In this document: piece after piece, positions 38,114 to 47,895 of the stretch
Layout: each line of letters starts with the position of its first letter
Position numbering within the stretch: the first letter of the stretch is position 1
Assembly: GCF_032401055.1 (NCBI RefSeq)
Contig: NZ_CP135529.1
Location: 620,001-684,000 of the forward strand
Direction of reading: 5' to 3'
DNA: 64,000 nucleotides
Source: Tardiphaga sp. 709
GTDB taxonomy: Bacteria > Pseudomonadota > Alphaproteobacteria > Rhizobiales > Xanthobacteraceae
The notes under the pieces: model-generated
Told to the model about the DNA's origin: nothing
Database searches by the model: none
Seen by the model: the letters and a program-made list of their open reading frames with translations, nothing else
Program-made: the position numbers and the translations under genes

Positions 38114-38526
38114 TTCGAACTGTTCGGCGCGGGTCGTTTTTTGTCCCGCCGGACGCTCCCAAACGGGTTCCAGATTGACCGCTCCGTCCTCCAGTCGAGG
38201 CTACGGGATCGGGGATTTGCGTCCTGGAATCCGGGCCGGAAAGTCGGCGTTTGGAGCACTAAAAAACGGGCCGGAAACCGGCTCAAACAGCGTGGTGAGG
38301 CGTTAGGATCGGGTCGACCTGCAGTTGCAAGGAAAGCCAGATCCGGGAAGCATGACCCCGGCAGTCCCGGGTGGCCGAGATGACGGCCAGCACATGCTCC
38401 ACAGAGATAAACAGGACCGGTTCACCCGGCCAAGCTGCGGCGAATTTGGGGCAACCTGGACGTCGCTAACAGAAATCGCCGATGCCGCCAGATGGGGTGT
38501 CGGGCTTAAGACGGGGCACGACCACG

Positions 38527-41500
38527 ATGCAGATTCAACGCCGCTACACCACCGAAGGACAGTCGCCCTATGCCGGGATCGACTTCCGCCACACCACGTC
38601 CGAGATCCGCAATCCGGATGGCTCCGTGGTGTTCAAGCTTGAAGGCGTTGAAGTGCCCGACTCATGGTCGCAGGTCGCCTCCGACGTGCTGGCCCAGAAG
38701 TATTTCCGTAAAGCGGGCGTCGCCGCGAAATTGAAGAAGGTCGAGGAAGAGACCGTGCCGTCGTGGCTGTGGCGCTCGGTGCCGGACACCGAGGCCCTCG
38801 CCTCCCTGCCCGAGAAAGAGCGCTTCGTCAGCGAACTTTCGTCCAAGCAGGTGTTCGACCGCCTCGCCGGCTGCTGGACCTATTGGGGCTGGAAGGGCGG
38901 CTACTTCACCTCTGAAGCCGACGCCCACGCGTTCCATGACGAGCTGCGCTTCATGCTCGCCAAACAAATGGTCGCGCCGAATTCGCCGCAGTGGTTCAAC
39001 ACCGGCCTGCACTGGGCCTACGGCGTCGATGGTCCCGGCCAGGGCCACTATTATGTGGACTGGAAGACCGGCAAGCTGACCAAGTCGAAATCGGCTTACG
39101 AACATCCGCAGCCCCATGCCTGTTTCATCCAGGGCGTCGAGGACGATCTGGTCAATGAAGGCGGCATCATGGACCTGTGGGTGCGTGAAGCCCGCCTGTT
39201 CAAGTATGGCTCGGGTACCGGCTCGAATTTCTCGAAGCTGCGCGGCGAAGGCGAGAAGCTGTCGGGTGGCGGACGCTCAAGCGGCCTGATGTCGTTCCTC
39301 AAGATCGGCGACCGTGCTGCCGGCGCCATCAAGTCGGGCGGCACCACGCGCCGCGCCGCCAAGATGGTCGTGGTCGATGCCGACCATCCGGATATCGAGA
39401 CCTATATCGACTGGAAGGTGAAGGAAGAGCAGAAGGTCGCGGCCCTCGTCACCGGGTCGAAGATGAACCAGAAGCACCTCAAGGCGATCCTGAAGGCCTG
39501 CGTGAACTGCGAAGGTTCGGGCGACGACTGCTTCGATCCCGAGAAGAACCCGGCGCTGCGCCGCGAGATCAAGCTCGCCCGCCGCTCGCTGGTCAATGAC
39601 AACGTCATCAAGCGCGTGATCCAGTATGCCAAGCAGGGCTACAAGGACATCGACTTCCCGATCTACGACACCGACTGGGACTCAGAGGCCTATCTCACTG
39701 TTGCCGGCCAGAACTCCAACAACTCCGTCTCGCTGAAGGACGATTTCCTGCGCGCCGTCGAGACCGATGGCAACTGGGACCTGATCGCCCGCAAGGACGG
39801 CAAGGTCATGAAGACCATCAAGGCCCGCGATCTCTGGGAAAAAATCGGTTACGCCGCCTGGGCGTCGGCCGATCCCGGCCTGCACTTCAACACCACCATG
39901 AACGACTGGCACACCTGCAAGTCGTCGGGCGATATCCGCGCGTCCAATCCGTGCTCGGAATACATGTTCCTGGACGACACGGCGTGTAACCTCGCCTCCG
40001 CCAACCTGCTGACCTTCTACGACACCGCCGCCGCAACCTTCGACATCCACGCCTACGAGCATCTCTGCCGTCTGTGGACCATGGTGCTCGAAATCTCGGT
40101 GATGATGGCGCAGTTCCCGTCGAAGCCGATCGCCGAACTCTCCTACGAGTTCCGCACCCTCGGCCTCGGCTATGCCAACATCGGCGGCCTGCTGATGACC
40201 ATGGGTCTGTCCTATGACAGCAAGGAAGGCCGCGCGCTGTGCGGCGCCCTCACCGCTGTCATGACCGGCGTCAGCTACGCGACCTCGGCCGAGATGGCCA
40301 AGGAGCTCGGCCCGTTCCCCGGCTACAAGAAGAACGCAGCTCACATGCTGCGCGTCATCCGCAACCATCGCCGTGCAGCCCATGGCGAAACCCGCGGCTA
40401 TGAAGGCCTCGCCGTCGCCCCCGTGGCGCTCGACCATGCCTCCTGCCCGCAGGCCGACATCGTCACCCGCGCCAAGATTGCCTGGGATCTCGCCCTCGAA
40501 CTCGGCGAACTCCATGGCTACCGCAACGCCCAGACCACCGTCGTGGCGCCGACCGGCACCATCGGCCTTGTCATGGATTGCGACACCACCGGCATCGAGC
40601 CTGACTTCGCGCTGGTGAAATTCAAGAAGCTCGCCGGTGGCGGCTACTGGAAGATCATCAACCGCGCCGTCCCGGCAGCACTCCGCGTGCTCGGCTATCG
40701 CGAGAGCGAGATCGCCGAGATCGAGGCCTATGCCGTCGGTCACGGTTCGCTGTCCAATGCGCCGGGCATCAATGCCTCGACCTTGAAAGCCAAGGGCTTC
40801 ACCGATGAAGCGCTGAAGAAGGTCGAGGCTGCACTGCCGACCGCCTTCGACATCAAGTTCGCCTTCAACAAGTGGACCTTCGGTGAGGACTTCCTGCGCG
40901 ACACCCTCAAGATCGAAGCTGAAGCCATTGCCGCGCCCGGTTTTGACCTGCTCGCCGCGCTCGGCTTCACCAAGCGCGAGATCGAAGCCGCCAACGTGCA
41001 TATCTGCGGCGCGATGACGGTGGAAGGTGCGCCGCATCTGAAGGCCGAGCACTACAGCGTGTTCGATTGCGCCAATCCCTGCGGCAAGATCGGCAAGCGC
41101 TATCTCTCGGTGGAAAGCCACATCCGCATGATGGCGGCGTCGCAGCCCTTCATTTCGGGTGCGATCTCCAAGACCATCAACATGCCGAACGACGCTACGG
41201 TGGAGGACTGCAAGTCCGCTTACCTGCTGTCGTGGAAGCTCGCGCTGAAGGCCAACGCGCTGTATCGCGATGGTTCCAAGCTCTCGCAGCCGCTCAACTC
41301 GCAGCTCATCTCTGATGAGGACGAGGACGAGGATGCGCTGGAGAACCTGATGGAGAAGCCGATGGCGGCGCGCACCGCCGCAATCTCCGAGAAGGTGGTC
41401 GAGCGTCTGGTCGAGCGCATCGTGGTGATGCGCGACCGCGAGAAGATGCCGGATCGCCGCAAGGGCTACACCCAGAAGGCCGTCGTCGGCGGTCACAAAG

Positions 41501-42270
41501 TGTACTTGCGCACCGGCGAATATGATGACGGCCGTCTCGGCGAGATCTTCATCGACATGCACAAGGAAGGCGCGGCGCTGCGCTCCTTCATCAACAACTT
41601 CGCCATCGCCGTCTCGCTGGGCCTCCAGTATGGCGTGCCGCTGGAGGAATATGTCGACGCCTTCACCTTCACCCGCTTCGAGCCCGCGGGCCCGGTACAG
41701 GGCAACGACAGCATCAAGTTCGCGACCTCGATCCTCGACTATGTGTTCCGCGAACTCGCGGTCTCCTACATGTCGCGCTTCGATCTCGGCCATGTCGACG
41801 TCTCGGAAGCGGGTTTTGATGCGCTCGGCAAGGGCGAGGACGAAGGCAAGGCGCCGGCCGACCAGAACAAGTATGTCTCGAAGGGCCTGACCCGCTCGCG
41901 CACCGACAACCTCGTCGTCATGCGCGCGCCGGCACCTGCCGAGAACACCGACGCCCGCGCGAGCGGCAACGTCACCTCGCTGAACGCGTCGGGCGCCACC
42001 GCCCGCCACGGCAGCGGCGATGCCGCGGTCGCCCTCAAGACCGCCGAGCCCGAGCACCAGCTCTCGCCGACCGAAAAACTCGAGGCGCAAGCCTGGAGCA
42101 AAGCGGGAAGCGCCGCAGCCGCCGCGCCAAGCAAGGCCGAACGCCGCGCCGAAGCGAAAGCCAAGGGCTATGAGGGCGACATGTGCGGCGAGTGTTCGAA
42201 CTTCACGCTGGTGCGGAATGGGACCTGTATGAAGTGCGATACGTGCGGCAGCACGACGGGGTGTTCGTAA
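38527..42270 (+). CDS. nrdJ: Vitamin B12-dependent (class II) ribonucleotide reductase
   Basis: 1247 residues, the long form of NrdJ. Reduces ribonucleotides to deoxyribonucleotides using adenosylcobalamin to start the radical. The active-site region [21 protein letters not shown] carries catalytic Cys and Asn/Glu residues; substrate loops include [16 protein letters not shown] near the N-terminus. After an Ala-rich linker (about 1145-1215) the C-terminus ends in a zinc-binding Cys cluster ([12 protein letters not shown]) that takes electrons from thioredoxin. The ATG at 38527 is preferred because family members begin MQIQRRYT; the frame is open to 38482. Codon use is very biased, as for a highly expressed gene. 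Confidence 0.96.
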
Positions 42271-42387: not shown

Positions 42388-43626
42388 ATGGAAGGTGCGG
42401 GCCAGTCGCTTGCTGTAAACGAGGGCCGCGCAACGCCCGGCAAAGCAAAAACGCGAATAAAGAAGCTTCTCCTTGAAATATTTTCAGGCCTAACCTGGGC
42501 CTACGTTCTTACAACCTTGTTCCTTTTCAACATTGACGCGCTGATCGCAGCCCAACTGGGGGATCACGCATGGTTGGTATCATACAAGTCGATTATTTTC
42601 TTAGGTGTGCTCGCTCTAATTTCTTGGATCACATCGCCAACAGGAACAATTAAGACACTACTTTTCGTTTTGTTCTGGCCACTGCTAAAGGTGATTTGGA
42701 CTCTTCCCAAGGCTCTTGTTTGGATAGGGAGTTGGTCACTAGCGCTTGGCATTCTTAGCGCCGCGGCATCGTTCTTTTACAAGTTTCGCCAGAACGTTAC
42801 GTTGGCATTCTGCTTCATCCTTTGCCAAACCGCCCCGTTTGTTATCCAAGACAAGTATGTTCTCGCCACGCTGGCAATCACGAACTTGTTAGTTCTGTTT
42901 TGGCTGTACGTTAGAGCAACGCTGTCAATCTTTCAGCCTAACATATTGTTTTCTGCCTACCGCACTGCTGTCACGAAGAGCACCGTCTTTGTTGTCAAGC
43001 ATACTCGGCTCGATGACGACATTAAAGCGACTCCAGTAAGCAAGCTTGAGACCACACAAATCAGCAAGAGGTCGGAAAGTCTTGCTCAAGCGCTGATCTT
43101 CGGCCGAGCCTGCACATTTGCAGCGAGAAAACTGCCCGCGCTCCACTCAAAAGGGTACGCGACAGTCGCAGGTGCGATCAGTATTCTCTCTTTGATCTTC
43201 TTCGCGACAATCATCTTTACGACCGTGAATTTTTCGATTCACAAAACATACCCAAATGCATTTGAGACAATAGGAACCCCATCATATTTTAAGTTTTGGT
43301 ATTATAGCTTCTTCAGCTTCTTAAATCGCGACATCAAAGATATCGTCGCTGTATCCGATCTCGCCCAAGCTAGTGCAATATTGGAGGCGACTTTTTCTCT
43401 GTTCACTGTGCTTGTTTTTGCCGCGACTTTGATTTCGTACAGAACTGAAAAATACTCGACACAGCTTGCCGAAACCGCAAGCACAATCGAAACACAGAGC
43501 AGGGAAATTGAGGCTCATGTCATGAACGAATGGAGCCTCTCGCCCGAAGACGCCTTTAAGGAGCTTGAGCGAGCCAGGTCTGGAGCCTTGGCTTTAATTA
43601 TTTGGCTGACTAACAATACAAAGTAA
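42388..43626 (+). CDS. Unknown membrane protein with potassium-channel-like pore module lacking the filter
   Basis: 412 residues, no named family recognised. The N-terminal half has about five hydrophobic segments (34-52, 66-84, 90-118, 120-152, 158-178). After a soluble stretch (185-255), the region 258-352 has the TM-pore helix-TM layout of two-TM potassium channels: segment 262-282, pore-like FWYYSFFSFLNRDIKDIVAVSD (303-324), and segment 328-350 with LAQASAILEA, as in channel inner helices. Where channels have TxGYGD, this protein has FLNRDIKD, so potassium selectivity is not expected. A coiled-coil-like tail follows. AT-richer codon use than nrdJ suggests transfer. GGAG lies 6 bp before the ATG. 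It is followed by a nuclease-like gene. Confidence 0.75.
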   Translation: MEGAGQSLAVNEGRATPGKAKTRIKKLLLEIFSGLTWAYVLTTLFLFNIDALIAAQLGDHAWLVSYKSIIFLGVLALISWITSPTGTIKTLLFVLFWPLLKVIWTLPKALVWIGSWSLALGILSAAASFFYKFRQNVTLAFCFILCQTAPFVIQDKYVLATLAITNLLVLFWLYVRATLSIFQPNILFSAYRTAVTKSTVFVVKHTRLDDDIKATPVSKLETTQISKRSESLAQALIFGRACTFAARKLPALHSKGYATVAGAISILSLIFFATIIFTTVNFSIHKTYPNAFETIGTPSYFKFWYYSFFSFLNRDIKDIVAVSDLAQASAILEATFSLFTVLVFAATLISYRTEKYSTQLAETASTIETQSREIEAHVMNEWSLSPEDAFKELERARSGALALIIWLTNNTK

Positions 43627-43755
43627 CGAGAACTCTGAGCGTGTCAGCCCGCGTGATCCACCGCATCCGCGCCACACGAACGCTCCTGCATTGCGTACTG
43701 TTTGTCGTCACTGAGCTGACCACTCGCTCATTCAACCTGAAAGAATGCGGGCTCC

Positions 43756-44553
43756 ATGGACGAACGTACGAGGAAGGTAATCGATGACGCCAGAGCGATC
43801 TACGAACCGATTGTCATCGGAAAGAACAGCAGGATCGGGCGCGGGACGGCTCTTTGGGAGAATTTCGAGAGAGCAATCCAAGCATGTGAAGTCGATTCAA
43901 TGGCTGGAGACAGCAAGCTTTTCGAAAACATCAACGAACTAGCCGTTGCTAAGATCCTCGCTGAAGATAAAGGCCTTAAGGGGACAATCGAATACGAACC
44001 TAGTCTGTTGCCTAGCGGCCGAAAGATCGACTTCGTGACCGATAGAGGCCGTGACAACGCGTATATCGAAGTAAAGTCTGTTCGCCCAAACACTCCAGAC
44101 ACGGAAGAGGCTTGGAAACTCTACGAGAAGCGCCGGGAGCTTCATCCAAAGCAGGCGCAATTTATCGCACATAAAGATTGGATGGGCGGTCGCGTTTACG
44201 GAAACACGTTTGCTTCACGCTCAAAGTTCCTAGAATACGCCATGGATTTTGAAGAGCGTCTGGCCGAAGCTAAGAAAATTCGATGTGGGCCCGGTCTGCT
44301 TATTGTATGCGGTAATGGCCTGTCATGGCATCGCTCAAATCTTGAGGATTTTGCGGATTACTATCACGCCGGGAAACACCGGCAGGATGATCCGTTCGCG
44401 CAGATGGAAGCGCATCACATCGAAGACAATAAGCTCAATCTGCTACGCAACATCGATAACTTCGGATCGCTGAAGCGCCATTGGGATATCGCGCAAAGAG
44501 ACGAATTTGTGTGGCCTGTACGTGGTCCGAGCTTCGGTGGCGTCGTCCGATAG
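43756..44553 (+). CDS. Predicted PD-(D/E)XK-fold nuclease
   Basis: 265 residues, soluble, no close family recognised. The core NINELAVAKIL (E61 helix), then GRKIDFV (D92), then AYIEVKS (E105-V-K107) is the E...D...ExK pattern of PD-(D/E)XK nucleases. The C-terminal 100 residues are rich in His, Asn and Trp. It lies 129 bp after the channel-like gene on the same strand and shares its AT-richer composition, so the two probably arrived together. The ribosome site is weak. A DNA- or RNA-cutting role, for example in defence, is inference from fold and company only. Confidence 0.7.
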   Translation: MDERTRKVIDDARAIYEPIVIGKNSRIGRGTALWENFERAIQACEVDSMAGDSKLFENINELAVAKILAEDKGLKGTIEYEPSLLPSGRKIDFVTDRGRDNAYIEVKSVRPNTPDTEEAWKLYEKRRELHPKQAQFIAHKDWMGGRVYGNTFASRSKFLEYAMDFEERLAEAKKIRCGPGLLIVCGNGLSWHRSNLEDFADYYHAGKHRQDDPFAQMEAHHIEDNKLNLLRNIDNFGSLKRHWDIAQRDEFVWPVRGPSFGGVVR

Positions 44554-44562
44554 CAAGCGTAG

Positions 44563-44588
44563 GGCGGATTAGCGCAGCGCAATCCGCC
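44563..44588. repeat. Palindromic dispersed repeat, copy A
   Basis: GGCGGATT-10 nt-AATCCGCC, an 8-bp perfect inverted repeat with loop AGCGCAGCGC, directly after the nuclease gene. Related to 55105-55175 and to partial copies at 46165-46220 and 46863-46894. Confidence 0.7.
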
Positions 44589-44679: not shown

Positions 44680-45948
44680 CTAGGCGCTGGTGACGCAGCG
44701 CCGCGTGATATGATCGATGTCCAGCGCACCCACCTGCCGCATGATCGTGATGAACTCATCGTCCAGGATCTGCAGCACCCGGTCCACGCCGGCCTCGCCG
44801 AACGACGCCAGGCCCCACACGTATGGCCGGCCAATGCCAACGGCCGCGGCGCCCAGAGCGAGCGCCTTCAGGACATCGGTGCCACGGCGTACGCCGCCGT
44901 CGATGAGCACCGGGATGCGCCCGCCCACCGCATCCACGACCTCCGCCAGCACACCGATCGTCGCCTGCCCGCTCTCTTCCGCGCGCCCGCCGTGGTTGGA
45001 GACGATCAGGCCGTCCACGCCGTGGCGCAACGCCTCCTTGGCGTCCTCACCCGTCATGATGCCCTTCAGCACGAGCTTGCCCTTGACGATCCCGCGCAGG
45101 CGATCGACGAATTCCCACGTCATCCCGGTGCCGTAGAGGTTGGTGACTTTGGAAACGTCGATGTCCGCGAAGTTGGTCTTGCGGCTGACCTCGTTGGTGA
45201 AGCCCGGTGTGTGACAGCCCGAGCACTCGCGCAGGTCCTGGCGCCGCTCGCGGAACAGGGTTTCGGTATTGCGGCCGCCCTGGCGGTCGACCGTGAGGAC
45301 GATCGCCGGAGAGCCCGCATTCTCGGCGCGCTGCACCAGCGCCCGCGTCACGTTCCAATCGTCGGTCGGATATAGCATGAACCAGGCCGGCCGGCCGTGC
45401 GCCTTGTTGACGTCGACGATGCTCGCGTTATCGACCGTCGAGAGAATCATCTGATGGTTACGCTTGGCAGCGGCGCGCGCCACGGTGACCCCGGCCTCGG
45501 GATCGTAGGCGCCGAGGCTGCTGACCGGGCACATGAAGATGGGGCTGGCCCAGGTTTCGCCGAAGATCTTCACGCTGGTGTCGATCTTTCGGGCATCGAT
45601 GAGACGCTGGACGCGGATATTGTACTTCGCGAAGGCGGTGTGATTGGCGTCGCGCGTCACGTCGCCGTCGACGCCGCTCTGGAGGTAGCCCCAGTGCGCC
45701 GGCGCGTCCTGGCTGAGCACGGCCTTCTTTGCCGCCGGCTCGAACTCAAACACGTCCAGCGCATCGGCCGGAGCGGTGATGATGCCGTCCGGACCGAACG
45801 CTCTTCGGGAGCCGCGCAGCACATCGTAGCTCTGCGCGAGCGCTTGATGCGCGTTAGCCGTCAACAGGGTGGTGATCGCACCGAGAGAGGTCGCCGTGAG
45901 AAGAGGACTAGCGGCGAAAAAACGCAGGAGTTGGCGGCGCGCGATCAT
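44680..45948 (-). CDS. FMN-dependent alpha-hydroxyacid dehydrogenase with Tat signal (LldD-like)
   Basis: 422 residues from the ATG at 45948. A twin-arginine signal (ARRQLLRFFAASPL, cleavage after ALA) is followed by an FMN barrel: ASPIFMCPVSSLGAYDPEAG, VLTVDRQGGRN, LVLKGIMTGEDA (catalytic-side Lys), the active-site SNHGGR, and the phosphate loop IDGGVRRGTDVLKALALGA. It oxidises an L-2-hydroxyacid such as lactate or a longer homologue. The Tat signal places it in the periplasm, unlike cytosolic LldD. An ATG at 46026 would add 26 residues before the signal; the shorter form is preferred. An extra CSGCH sequence occurs mid-protein, once, so heme c binding is conceivable but untested. Confidence 0.87.
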   Translation of the reverse strand: MIARRQLLRFFAASPLLTATSLGAITTLLTANAHQALAQSYDVLRGSRRAFGPDGIITAPADALDVFEFEPAAKKAVLSQDAPAHWGYLQSGVDGDVTRDANHTAFAKYNIRVQRLIDARKIDTSVKIFGETWASPIFMCPVSSLGAYDPEAGVTVARAAAKRNHQMILSTVDNASIVDVNKAHGRPAWFMLYPTDDWNVTRALVQRAENAGSPAIVLTVDRQGGRNTETLFRERRQDLRECSGCHTPGFTNEVSRKTNFADIDVSKVTNLYGTGMTWEFVDRLRGIVKGKLVLKGIMTGEDAKEALRHGVDGLIVSNHGGRAEESGQATIGVLAEVVDAVGGRIPVLIDGGVRRGTDVLKALALGAAAVGIGRPYVWGLASFGEAGVDRVLQILDDEFITIMRQVGALDIDHITRRCVTSA

Positions 45949-46362
45949 CGTGCGCTCTGAAATGTCCGGCGCCCCGGCTGCATGTGTCGCCTTCACCAGC
46001 GTCGTCCTGCGCGAGAGACCTGTCATCGTGTTCTTTCGAATGCGAATGAGTGCCGCAGGTTAGGCAGATTGGTCTGTGTCGTCGTCACGTCAGTGTCTTC
46101 AGGGTGGCGATGACATTCCGGCGATATAATGACAATTCTGGTCGCATGTCCATCGGCAAGCGGTGGCCGGATGAGCGCTGCGTGATCCACCATCGTCGTA
46201 TCGGCGCAATACGCTTCGCACTTGCGCGCCACGCGTTGACGTCGGACGTTGCGCCCTTGGGAGGCGACCGCGCGTCGCGCCTACGTCATTGACGATTCCC
46301 GCGATGCTCTATCTAGTTGCCGCAGTGCCGCCACGCGGCAGCCCCATGACCGGAATATCAAT
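45949..46362. other. 414-bp divergent gap with a degenerate repeat
   Basis: Between the hydroxyacid dehydrogenase (minus) and an exported protein gene (plus). The only recognisable content is repeat copy C (46165-46220). No small gene seen. Confidence 0.5.
46165..46220. repeat. Dispersed repeat, degenerate copy C
   Basis: Begins GGCCGGATGAGCG, has GTGATCCACC at the place of the second arm, and shares the 12-mer AATACGCTTCGC with copy B at 55105-55175. Pairing has decayed. Confidence 0.5.
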
Positions 46363-47097: not shown

Positions 47098-47895
47098 ATG
47101 ACGAAGGTCCCGTTCATCTTCAGCGCCAAATGCCGTCGTCGCTGGCGGCGCAGCCTGCGCTCGGCGCAACGGACGCTCGCGAAACTGCCGCGCGCTGTTC
47201 AAATCGCCGGCGCCGTCGCAATCGTGCTTGTCACCCTCGTGCTGTCCAACCTCATCTATCACGTGATCCACAAGCCGACCGAGTTGTTCTTCTTTGTCGG
47301 CCACAGGCTCGACAAGGAGCCGGCCGAGACGTGGCGGCATTACGGGCCGCTGTTTCGCGCCTTTTCGACGCGGTCGATCACGCCCGAATTGCTCGCTGCG
47401 CTGGCGCAGGTCGAGAGTTCCGGCAATCCCCTGGATCGCACCTATTGGCGCTGGCGGTTCAGCTTCAATCCGTTCGCGATCTATCGGCCCGCATCCAGCG
47501 CCGTCGGTCTCTTTCAAATGACCGATCCGGCCTATGCCGAAGTTTCGCGCTTCTGCATCCGGGCGAACGCGGTTCAGGATACGGGCTGCGGCTTCGGCCC
47601 CTATATTCGTGCCATCCCGAGCCATGCCACCGAGCTCGCATCGATCTATCTGGACCGCAATGTCGCCGCGGTCCTCGCGCGCGCCGGCGGCGTGGCGCCG
47701 ACCCCGCAACAGGTGCAGGATCTCGCCGCCTTCATCCATCTGTGCGGTGGAGGACCCGCCACCGCTTATGCACGCCGTCGCTTCCAGATGACGGCCAATG
47801 AGCGATGCGGCGACCATTCCGTTGCGAGTTACGTCTCCAGGGTCAACGCGCTGAAGCGCAAGTTCCTGCTGATGGCATCCGATAGCGATAAATAG
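47098..47895 (+). CDS. Membrane-anchored lytic transglycosylase (SLT family)
   Basis: 265 residues. A basic N-terminus and one membrane segment (about 35-56) anchor a periplasmic SLT domain. Catalytic Glu is E106 in LAQVESSGNP; the next conserved block AVGLFQMTDPAYAEV follows, then LCGGGPATAYARR. It cleaves murein to 1,6-anhydro products. An insert YWRWRFSFNPF between the first two motifs is long for the family. The preceding 58-residue HTH gene may share its transcript. Confidence 0.9.
   Translation: MTKVPFIFSAKCRRRWRRSLRSAQRTLAKLPRAVQIAGAVAIVLVTLVLSNLIYHVIHKPTELFFFVGHRLDKEPAETWRHYGPLFRAFSTRSITPELLAALAQVESSGNPLDRTYWRWRFSFNPFAIYRPASSAVGLFQMTDPAYAEVSRFCIRANAVQDTGCGFGPYIRAIPSHATELASIYLDRNVAAVLARAGGVAPTPQQVQDLAAFIHLCGGGPATAYARRRFQMTANERCGDHSVASYVSRVNALKRKFLLMASDSDK

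Follow-up and report, generated by a model that had tools for sequence, protein, structure and literature searches.

A variable slot behind nrdJ holds a channel-like membrane protein gene and a PD-(D/E)XK-like nuclease gene, possibly as separate defence cargo

An ion-channel mode of abortive defence has been proposed for RexB of phage lambda and for gp31 of Sbash (PMC6426596, PMC6426606). P2-like phages are described as carrying small hotspots with a high turnover of cargo (PMC9122126). The locus reported here, in which a membrane protein gene with a channel-like module and a nuclease-like gene lie side by side in a chromosomal slot, bears a likeness to both. The window, by which we mean the whole 64-kb stretch of DNA analysed, contains the following features of interest:

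38482 to 42270, plus strand: presumed nrdJ, the left anchor of the slot, an ORF whose 3′ part is matched in congeners
42388 to 43626, plus strand: membrane protein gene, 412 aa, identified from the ORF list, hydropathy and relatives
43162 to 43434, plus strand: TM-pore-TM module, residues 259-349 of the membrane protein, where DUF1345 and two channel pores align with the family profile
43324 to 43341, plus strand: NRDIKD, residues 313-318, at the place of TxGYGD in the alignments
43756 to 44553, plus strand: PD-(D/E)XK-like nuclease gene, 265 aa, identified from the ORF list, residues and relatives
43936 to 44076, plus strand: catalytic-type residues E61 (43936-43938), D92 (44029-44031) and E105-x-K107 (44068-44076), invariant in 3/3 homologues
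44559 to 44588, no strand: REP-like palindrome with copies scattered through the genus, here six bases 3′ of the nuclease stop codon
44680 to 46026, minus strand: presumed dehydrogenase-type gene, the right neighbour of the two-gene island
47098 to 47895, plus strand: SLT-domain (transglycosylase-type) gene, the right-hand anchor in some congeners, with PF01464 just above the cut-off

We take the genes at 38482-42270 and 44680-46026 to be nrdJ and a dehydrogenase-type gene, names that rest on their sequences and on a first-pass annotation of this DNA. Two plus-strand genes of low GC3 between them had been described there, and the ORFs and GC3 values bear this out. GC3 is 0.53 in the membrane protein gene and 0.55 in the nuclease gene, compared with a range of 0.74-0.89 across six neighbouring genes; of all 500-bp windows in the 64 kb, the eight with the lowest GC fall within the two-gene region. 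The spacer between the two genes (129 bases, GC 0.589) is GC-richer than either of them. Promoter-like sites (3 vs 1.8 in shuffles) and terminator-like sites (4 vs 2.6) are near the shuffled expectation, and no tRNA was found in the 64-kb window.

By hydropathy (19-residue window, mean at least 1.5), the membrane protein (P0001) has eight hydrophobic segments, comprising six at residues 40-175, which the first-pass annotation did not include, followed by 259-277 and 331-349. Between the last two sits FWYYSFFSFLNRDIKDI, and a TM-pore-TM layout is plausible from this arrangement. The four relatives that we identified have 8, 8, 5 and 7 such segments. One is encoded on a plasmid of Exiguobacterium acetylicum (23.7% identity over 98%), two are on plasmids of Arthrobacter and Paenarthrobacter (about 21%, reached via the Exiguobacterium acetylicum protein), and one is on a viral contig (28% identity). 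The protein aligns with relatives over nearly its full length at 24-28% identity, and the consensus of the C-terminal module in the five members is (F/W)-x-F-x-(Y/H)-Y-S. Of the three plasmids that carry relatives, two are conjugative and one is mobilizable; the phage contig is called P2-like because it also encodes a D12-class DNA methyltransferase, a portal gene and a gpP-type terminase gene. The relative on that contig is found past the terminase gene, with 319 bases left to the end of the available sequence. According to annotation, the plasmid relatives adjoin few recognised defence genes, and no neighbour shared among the relatives' loci was seen.

This protein family is sparsely distributed. 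Among 296 genomes of the source organism's taxonomic family the membrane protein was matched in one, its own, and a tblastn search with it at 0.01 had no match to L008, which was reached via P0003. A single-protein search of viral contigs returned no relative, further profile and single-protein scans of viral contigs with the family returned only the contig already known, and neither protein of the locus had a match in phage records. The profile scans and the P0001 scans each drew on 300-400 genomes at most, which certainly leaves the family undersampled. The protein has no match above cut-off in Pfam or NCBIfam and none to a PADLOC family up to E 10; among the system proteins of PADLOC-DB 2.0.0, neither it nor the nuclease (P0002) matched any family up to the same value. 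Searches of solved structures gave no credible match. Sub-threshold matches to RPW8, LapA, sigma70 and HtpX, as well as one to phrog_27401 (E 0.0017), were treated as chance, and a match in genome G334 (L005) was likewise dismissed, the matched stretch having four stops and no listed ORF of at least 120 aa that covers it in that frame. As far as sequence comparison goes, this is a sparse, mobile, single-gene family with no name in Pfam, PADLOC or NCBIfam. Among the papers listed by a literature search of partial coverage, none was seen to treat the family or the nrdJ slot.

In the membrane protein, N313-D318 (NRDIKD) occupies the place of the K+ filter, and TxGYG is absent in 5/5 family members. 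A true K+ channel was considered and rejected. Scans with the family alignment point to the kinship of the module. In one scan of 289 genomes, a DUF1345 protein was matched in 1 of 288 other genomes (E 2.2e-5), and in a second, of 288 genomes, two pore-signature proteins were matched in 2 of 287 others, with the signatures TLGAAD (L085, E 6.2e-5) and TTTGYGD (L086, E 2.0e-4). The place in L086 is independently matched by PF07885 at 3.9e-14, and DUF1345 (PF07077) is a domain of unknown function. These E-values are per genome (2.2e-5 to 2e-4) and a single hit could be chance, so that the case rests on three of three hits falling in the pore module in the same register. On rescoring with the family profile, the three hits reached 27.7, 22.9 and 22.9 bits, compared with 9.9 for the best of 6,000 shuffles.

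Alignment of profiles by hhalign was less even. Against 13 DUF1345 proteins (15 loci minus the incomplete L052 and L055), 0/200 shuffles scored as high, for a match that spans 14 columns; against 19 channel pores (the Ion_trans_2 set of 20 loci minus L074), the family aligned in the expected register, but 13/200 column shuffles scored as high, which is not significant. In Pfam, the membrane protein is without a PF07885 match up to E 10 and its four relatives up to E 1, and none of the five matches PF07077 above cut-off. The earlier description of the protein as channel-like holds for the kinship of the module and for the replaced filter, and is weaker where the comparison with channel pores by hhalign is concerned. 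Kinship of the pore module with channel pores and DUF1345 is supported by these alignments, and the filterless module may not be conducting.

In the second protein, the residues expected of a PD-(D/E)XK nuclease that had been pointed out previously (E61, D92 and E105-V-K107) are present, and E61, D92, E105 and K107 are invariant in 3/3 aligned homologues. These share a C-terminal motif, Y-x2-G-x-HR-x-DDP, which is invariant in the three as well. Matches were found in 2 of the same 296 genomes, its own and one more; the nearest relative, at 54% identity and aligned over nearly the whole length, is in a Bradyrhizobiaceae MAG (CP078014.1) of the same family as the source genome, and a distant one is in G385 (E 2.4e-7, 1 of 298 other genomes). 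Neither a search with the protein nor one with the nuclease alignment found a relative in viral contigs, and the protein had no match in plasmids. The SfsA domain PF03749, whose RE domain has a restriction-type fold, matches two of the three homologues below cut-off (16 and 18.9 vs 22.8 bits), over residues 74-110 of the nuclease. A predicted structure was rejected as evidence, its mean pLDDT being 46.5. The best reading of the second gene, from residues and relatives, would be a solo PD-(D/E)XK nuclease and separate cargo.

In CP078014.1, the relative lies near presumed integrase-type and SRAP-type genes, and also near a gene whose match to HNH_5 is below threshold. Its ORF (L006:5752-6759) starts with an in-frame segment of ribosomal protein L30 (rpmD; PF00327 E 2.9e-17, TIGR01308 5.7e-20), so that the gene is either fused to L30 or came to lie downstream of an additional copy of it. 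The solved-structure search with this relative returned mostly ribosomal L30, due to the fused L30-like stretch.

A DNA search for the slot covered the source genome and 17 others of the genus. A match on the nrdJ side was found in 14 of the 17 others, all of which were read, and the three lacking one (G198, G214 and G222) were left out. In the congeners the DNA match ends at the nrdJ stop codon or at most 10 bases from it, and beyond it the 14 carry differing, mostly AT-rich cargo; no empty site was observed among these slots, and both genes of the window are absent from all 17 other congener genomes searched. Three contigs end soon after nrdJ, at about 1.1 kb (G088), 0.8 kb (G206) and 2.5 kb (G026). 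GC in the first 500 bases after nrdJ is at most 0.57 in 12/14, the exceptions being G189 (0.64) and G206 (0.59). Three near relatives with a right flank like that of the window (G107, G066 and G026) hold other genes in the slot, at a GC of 0.47-0.51 compared with 0.49 in the window. Those of G107 encode proteins of 488 aa and 291 aa, those of G066 two small proteins, and those of G026 a 235 aa protein as well as one of 296 aa whose matches to HEPN/DUF4145 stay below threshold. For the 488 aa protein, JetC/SMC matches (best 7.3e-5) were set aside as coiled-coil chance.

Recognisable antiviral-type genes occur in some of the other slots. Directly behind nrdJ, G155 carries a CBASS-type pair of a SAVED protein and an oligonucleotide cyclase (L032:5898-8341; Pfam E 1.6e-34 and 5.8e-23, PADLOC cyclase 9.8e-186), and behind nrdJ in G124 there is a TIR fragment of 107 aa beside an avidin-family gene (L034:8627-9103, PF01382 E 4.6e-9). 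The slot of G140 holds a protein with DUF4062, a domain linked to conflict proteins. In that of G169, a CHAT-domain gene comes after an LCAT-like lipase-type gene, 2.5-5.8 kb behind nrdJ (L035:3859-7150), a possible protease-effector pair. In 8/14 slots (G107, G066, G026, G088, G244, G230, G237 and G206), no scanned cargo ORF exceeded the Pfam cut-off, the ORFs there being partly scanned. On the right-hand side, the SLT-type gene of the window follows nrdJ in 5/14 congeners, 1.3-7.6 kb away; 3/14 slots have the small gene that lies at 46249 in the window, one of them a partial copy. The site after nrdJ is a variable, mostly AT-rich slot for acquired genes. The suggestion that the two genes are acquired DNA is borne out by their low GC3, their patchy distribution (1/296 and 2/296) and the variability of the slot in 14 congeners. 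The slot itself, with antiviral-type genes in some sister species, is context missing from the first-pass annotation.

Some further details concern the dynamics of the site. The unnamed 235 aa protein of G026 (L031:247-954) has a 48% relative in the slot of G244 (L039:1791-2489), so some cargo persists at the site or returns to it. Of the dehydrogenase-type gene, only a C-terminal fragment of 109 aa is left in G107 (L029:4824-5261), and G066 has no match; this neighbour is thus itself unstable. Copies of the REP-like palindrome with at most 6 mismatches lie within 6.5 kb after nrdJ in 5/14 congener slots (L029, L030, L031, L034 and L081), some directly behind a cargo gene, and short matches to it are dispersed through the genus. 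The palindrome may mark recombination points.

The defence content of the slot was compared with that of control loci around DUF1345 genes, which represent one family and neighbourhood, 10 from the genus and 3 from other genera, with a flank GC of 0.587-0.719. PADLOC was run on 32 mechanically called ORFs from 11 nrdJ slots and 51 ORFs from 13 control loci, and the remaining three of the 14 slots were scanned with Pfam alone. At 1e-4, 0/51 control ORFs match. Among the 32 slot ORFs there are matches for the two CBASS-type genes, the TIR fragment (6.9e-5) and the discounted coiled-coil protein (7.3e-5), which places defence matches in 2 (or 3) of 11 slots vs 0/13 controls. Of the 46 PADLOC families matched, 25 are listed, and the counts for the cyclase (21), SAVED (23), TIR (1) and coiled-coil (1) proteins sum to 46, so presumably no further slot ORF matched. 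Low GC distinguishes the slot from the controls much more clearly than defence matches do. Some congener slots hold CBASS or TIR genes, which supports a neighbourhood with defence genes in some relatives; enrichment is suggestive, the loci being too few for proof.

We read the two genes as independent cargo in an acquired-gene hotspot, the first encoding a membrane-permeabilising effector and the second a solo nuclease, with a probability of roughly 0.4. What the sequences support in this reading is the foreign composition, the variable site, the pore kinship, the missing filter, the catalytic residues and the lack of linkage; an oligomer, its sensing, gating and target, and a role in defence are what we infer. 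The first protein is, to judge from its sequence, probably a membrane-permeabilising anti-phage effector. Its N-terminal hydrophobic bundle and linker could form a sensing part, and the TM-pore-TM module without a K+ filter could oligomerise. Upon infection by a phage or another element, the pore would open unselectively and ions would leak; the membrane potential would then collapse and replication of the invader would stop, as has been suggested for RexB of lambda and gp31 of Sbash. The nuclease would probably cleave foreign nucleic acid unaided. The more specific proposal that the first gene is an undescribed one-gene anti-phage system, in which an infection-sensing polypeptide would stall or kill the cell via an unselective channel-type pore, and which is spread over Actinomycetota and Bacillota plasmids, a P2-like phage and the nrdJ hotspot, is one that we hold to be doubtful.

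It is quite possible that neither gene serves in defence. The first could encode an accessory protein of mobile elements for transport, stress response or the envelope, the second an unrelated repair-type nuclease, and the slot would be merely permissive. DUF1345 genes occur once each in 17/18 congener genomes, own included, so ordinary genomes, too, have channel-like modules that lack a filter. Some genes in the slot, such as the avidin-like one, have no defence link, and the 54% nuclease relative lies near the presumed SRAP-type gene. The patchiness of the two genes, carriage by phage and plasmids and the presence of CBASS and TIR genes in congener slots nevertheless fit conflict genes better.

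The first-pass annotation had proposed a single system of membrane effector and nuclease, and this was not supported by the search for homologues as neighbours. The nuclease partner is absent from the available flanks of all other membrane-protein loci (0/4; three plasmids and one P2-like contig), and the membrane-protein partner from those of the other nuclease loci (0/2; CP078014.1 and G385), which are few relatives, some with short flanks. For L004, L006, L007 and L008 the flanks covered 5.6-6 kb on each side, for L041 5 + 0.3 kb and for L083 0.5 + 1.4 kb, and at the G385 locus the partner was judged among listed ORFs. A conserved two-gene system was rejected, the partner lacking in the available flanks of all six other loci examined. 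The two genes could still form one system if they had been paired recently in this lineage, which would agree with their common strand, their distance of 129 bases, their similar GC3 (0.53/0.55) and their joint absence from the 17 other congeners. This is improbable given the partnerless loci (0/4 and 0/2), and the GC-richer spacer (0.589) looks as if the genes had arrived separately, while a common cargo slot accounts for their adjacency.

The first gene might alternatively encode a channel that is ion-selective through a filter of an unusual kind and that acts in ion balance. The profile match to a PF07885 channel, with kinship in register, speaks for such a protein. The filter stretch, however, varies across the five members (NRDIKD, NGIDD, NGIDE, GEVSA and GEVDA), unlike a conserved selectivity filter, and we regard this alternative as very improbable. 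That the two genes are functionless passengers in decay is hardly likely at all: decay does occur in the slot, as in the 107 aa TIR of G124 and the dehydrogenase fragment of G107, but neither ORF is interrupted, each aligns with relatives across almost its entire length (24-28% and 54%), and the nuclease keeps the catalytic-type residues.

If the reading of two independent cargo genes is true, a mobile single-gene membrane effector family would be added to the antiviral repertoire, along with a new use of a channel-type pore without a filter. The nrdJ slot is a compact place in which to seek unknown conflict genes.

Among described proteins, the two-TM/pore-loop K+ channels (PF07885, Ion_trans_2) resemble the membrane protein in their TM-pore-TM layout, with a profile match in register, whereas the family lacks TxGYG in 5/5 members and has an extra N-terminal hydrophobic bundle. 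DUF1345 (PF07077) shares with it a stretch of the P-x3-F-x-(Y)-Y-S-F type and the helix that follows; the match extends over few positions, 14 columns with hhalign and about 60 with HMMER, and DUF1345 is present in 17/18 congeners compared with one for P0001. The nuclease has the E, D and ExK residues of SfsA (PF03749) and other PD-(D/E)XK nucleases, but differs from SfsA in its sub-cut-off match and its own C-terminal motif, Y-x2-G-x-HR-x-DDP. RexAB, Sbash gp30/gp31 and CarolAnn gp43/gp44 offer the parallel of a membrane protein borne on a mobile element, with a proposed ion-channel mode of abortive defence that is putative here; those membrane proteins contain four TM segments and act with a partner protein, while the present one has eight hydrophobic segments and, among its relatives, no linked partner (PMC6426596, PMC6426606). 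The nrdJ slot differs from the hotspots of P2-like phages in being chromosomal, behind nrdJ, and in a defence share that is only suggestive, and it is like them in being a small slot between conserved genes with a high turnover of cargo (PMC9122126).
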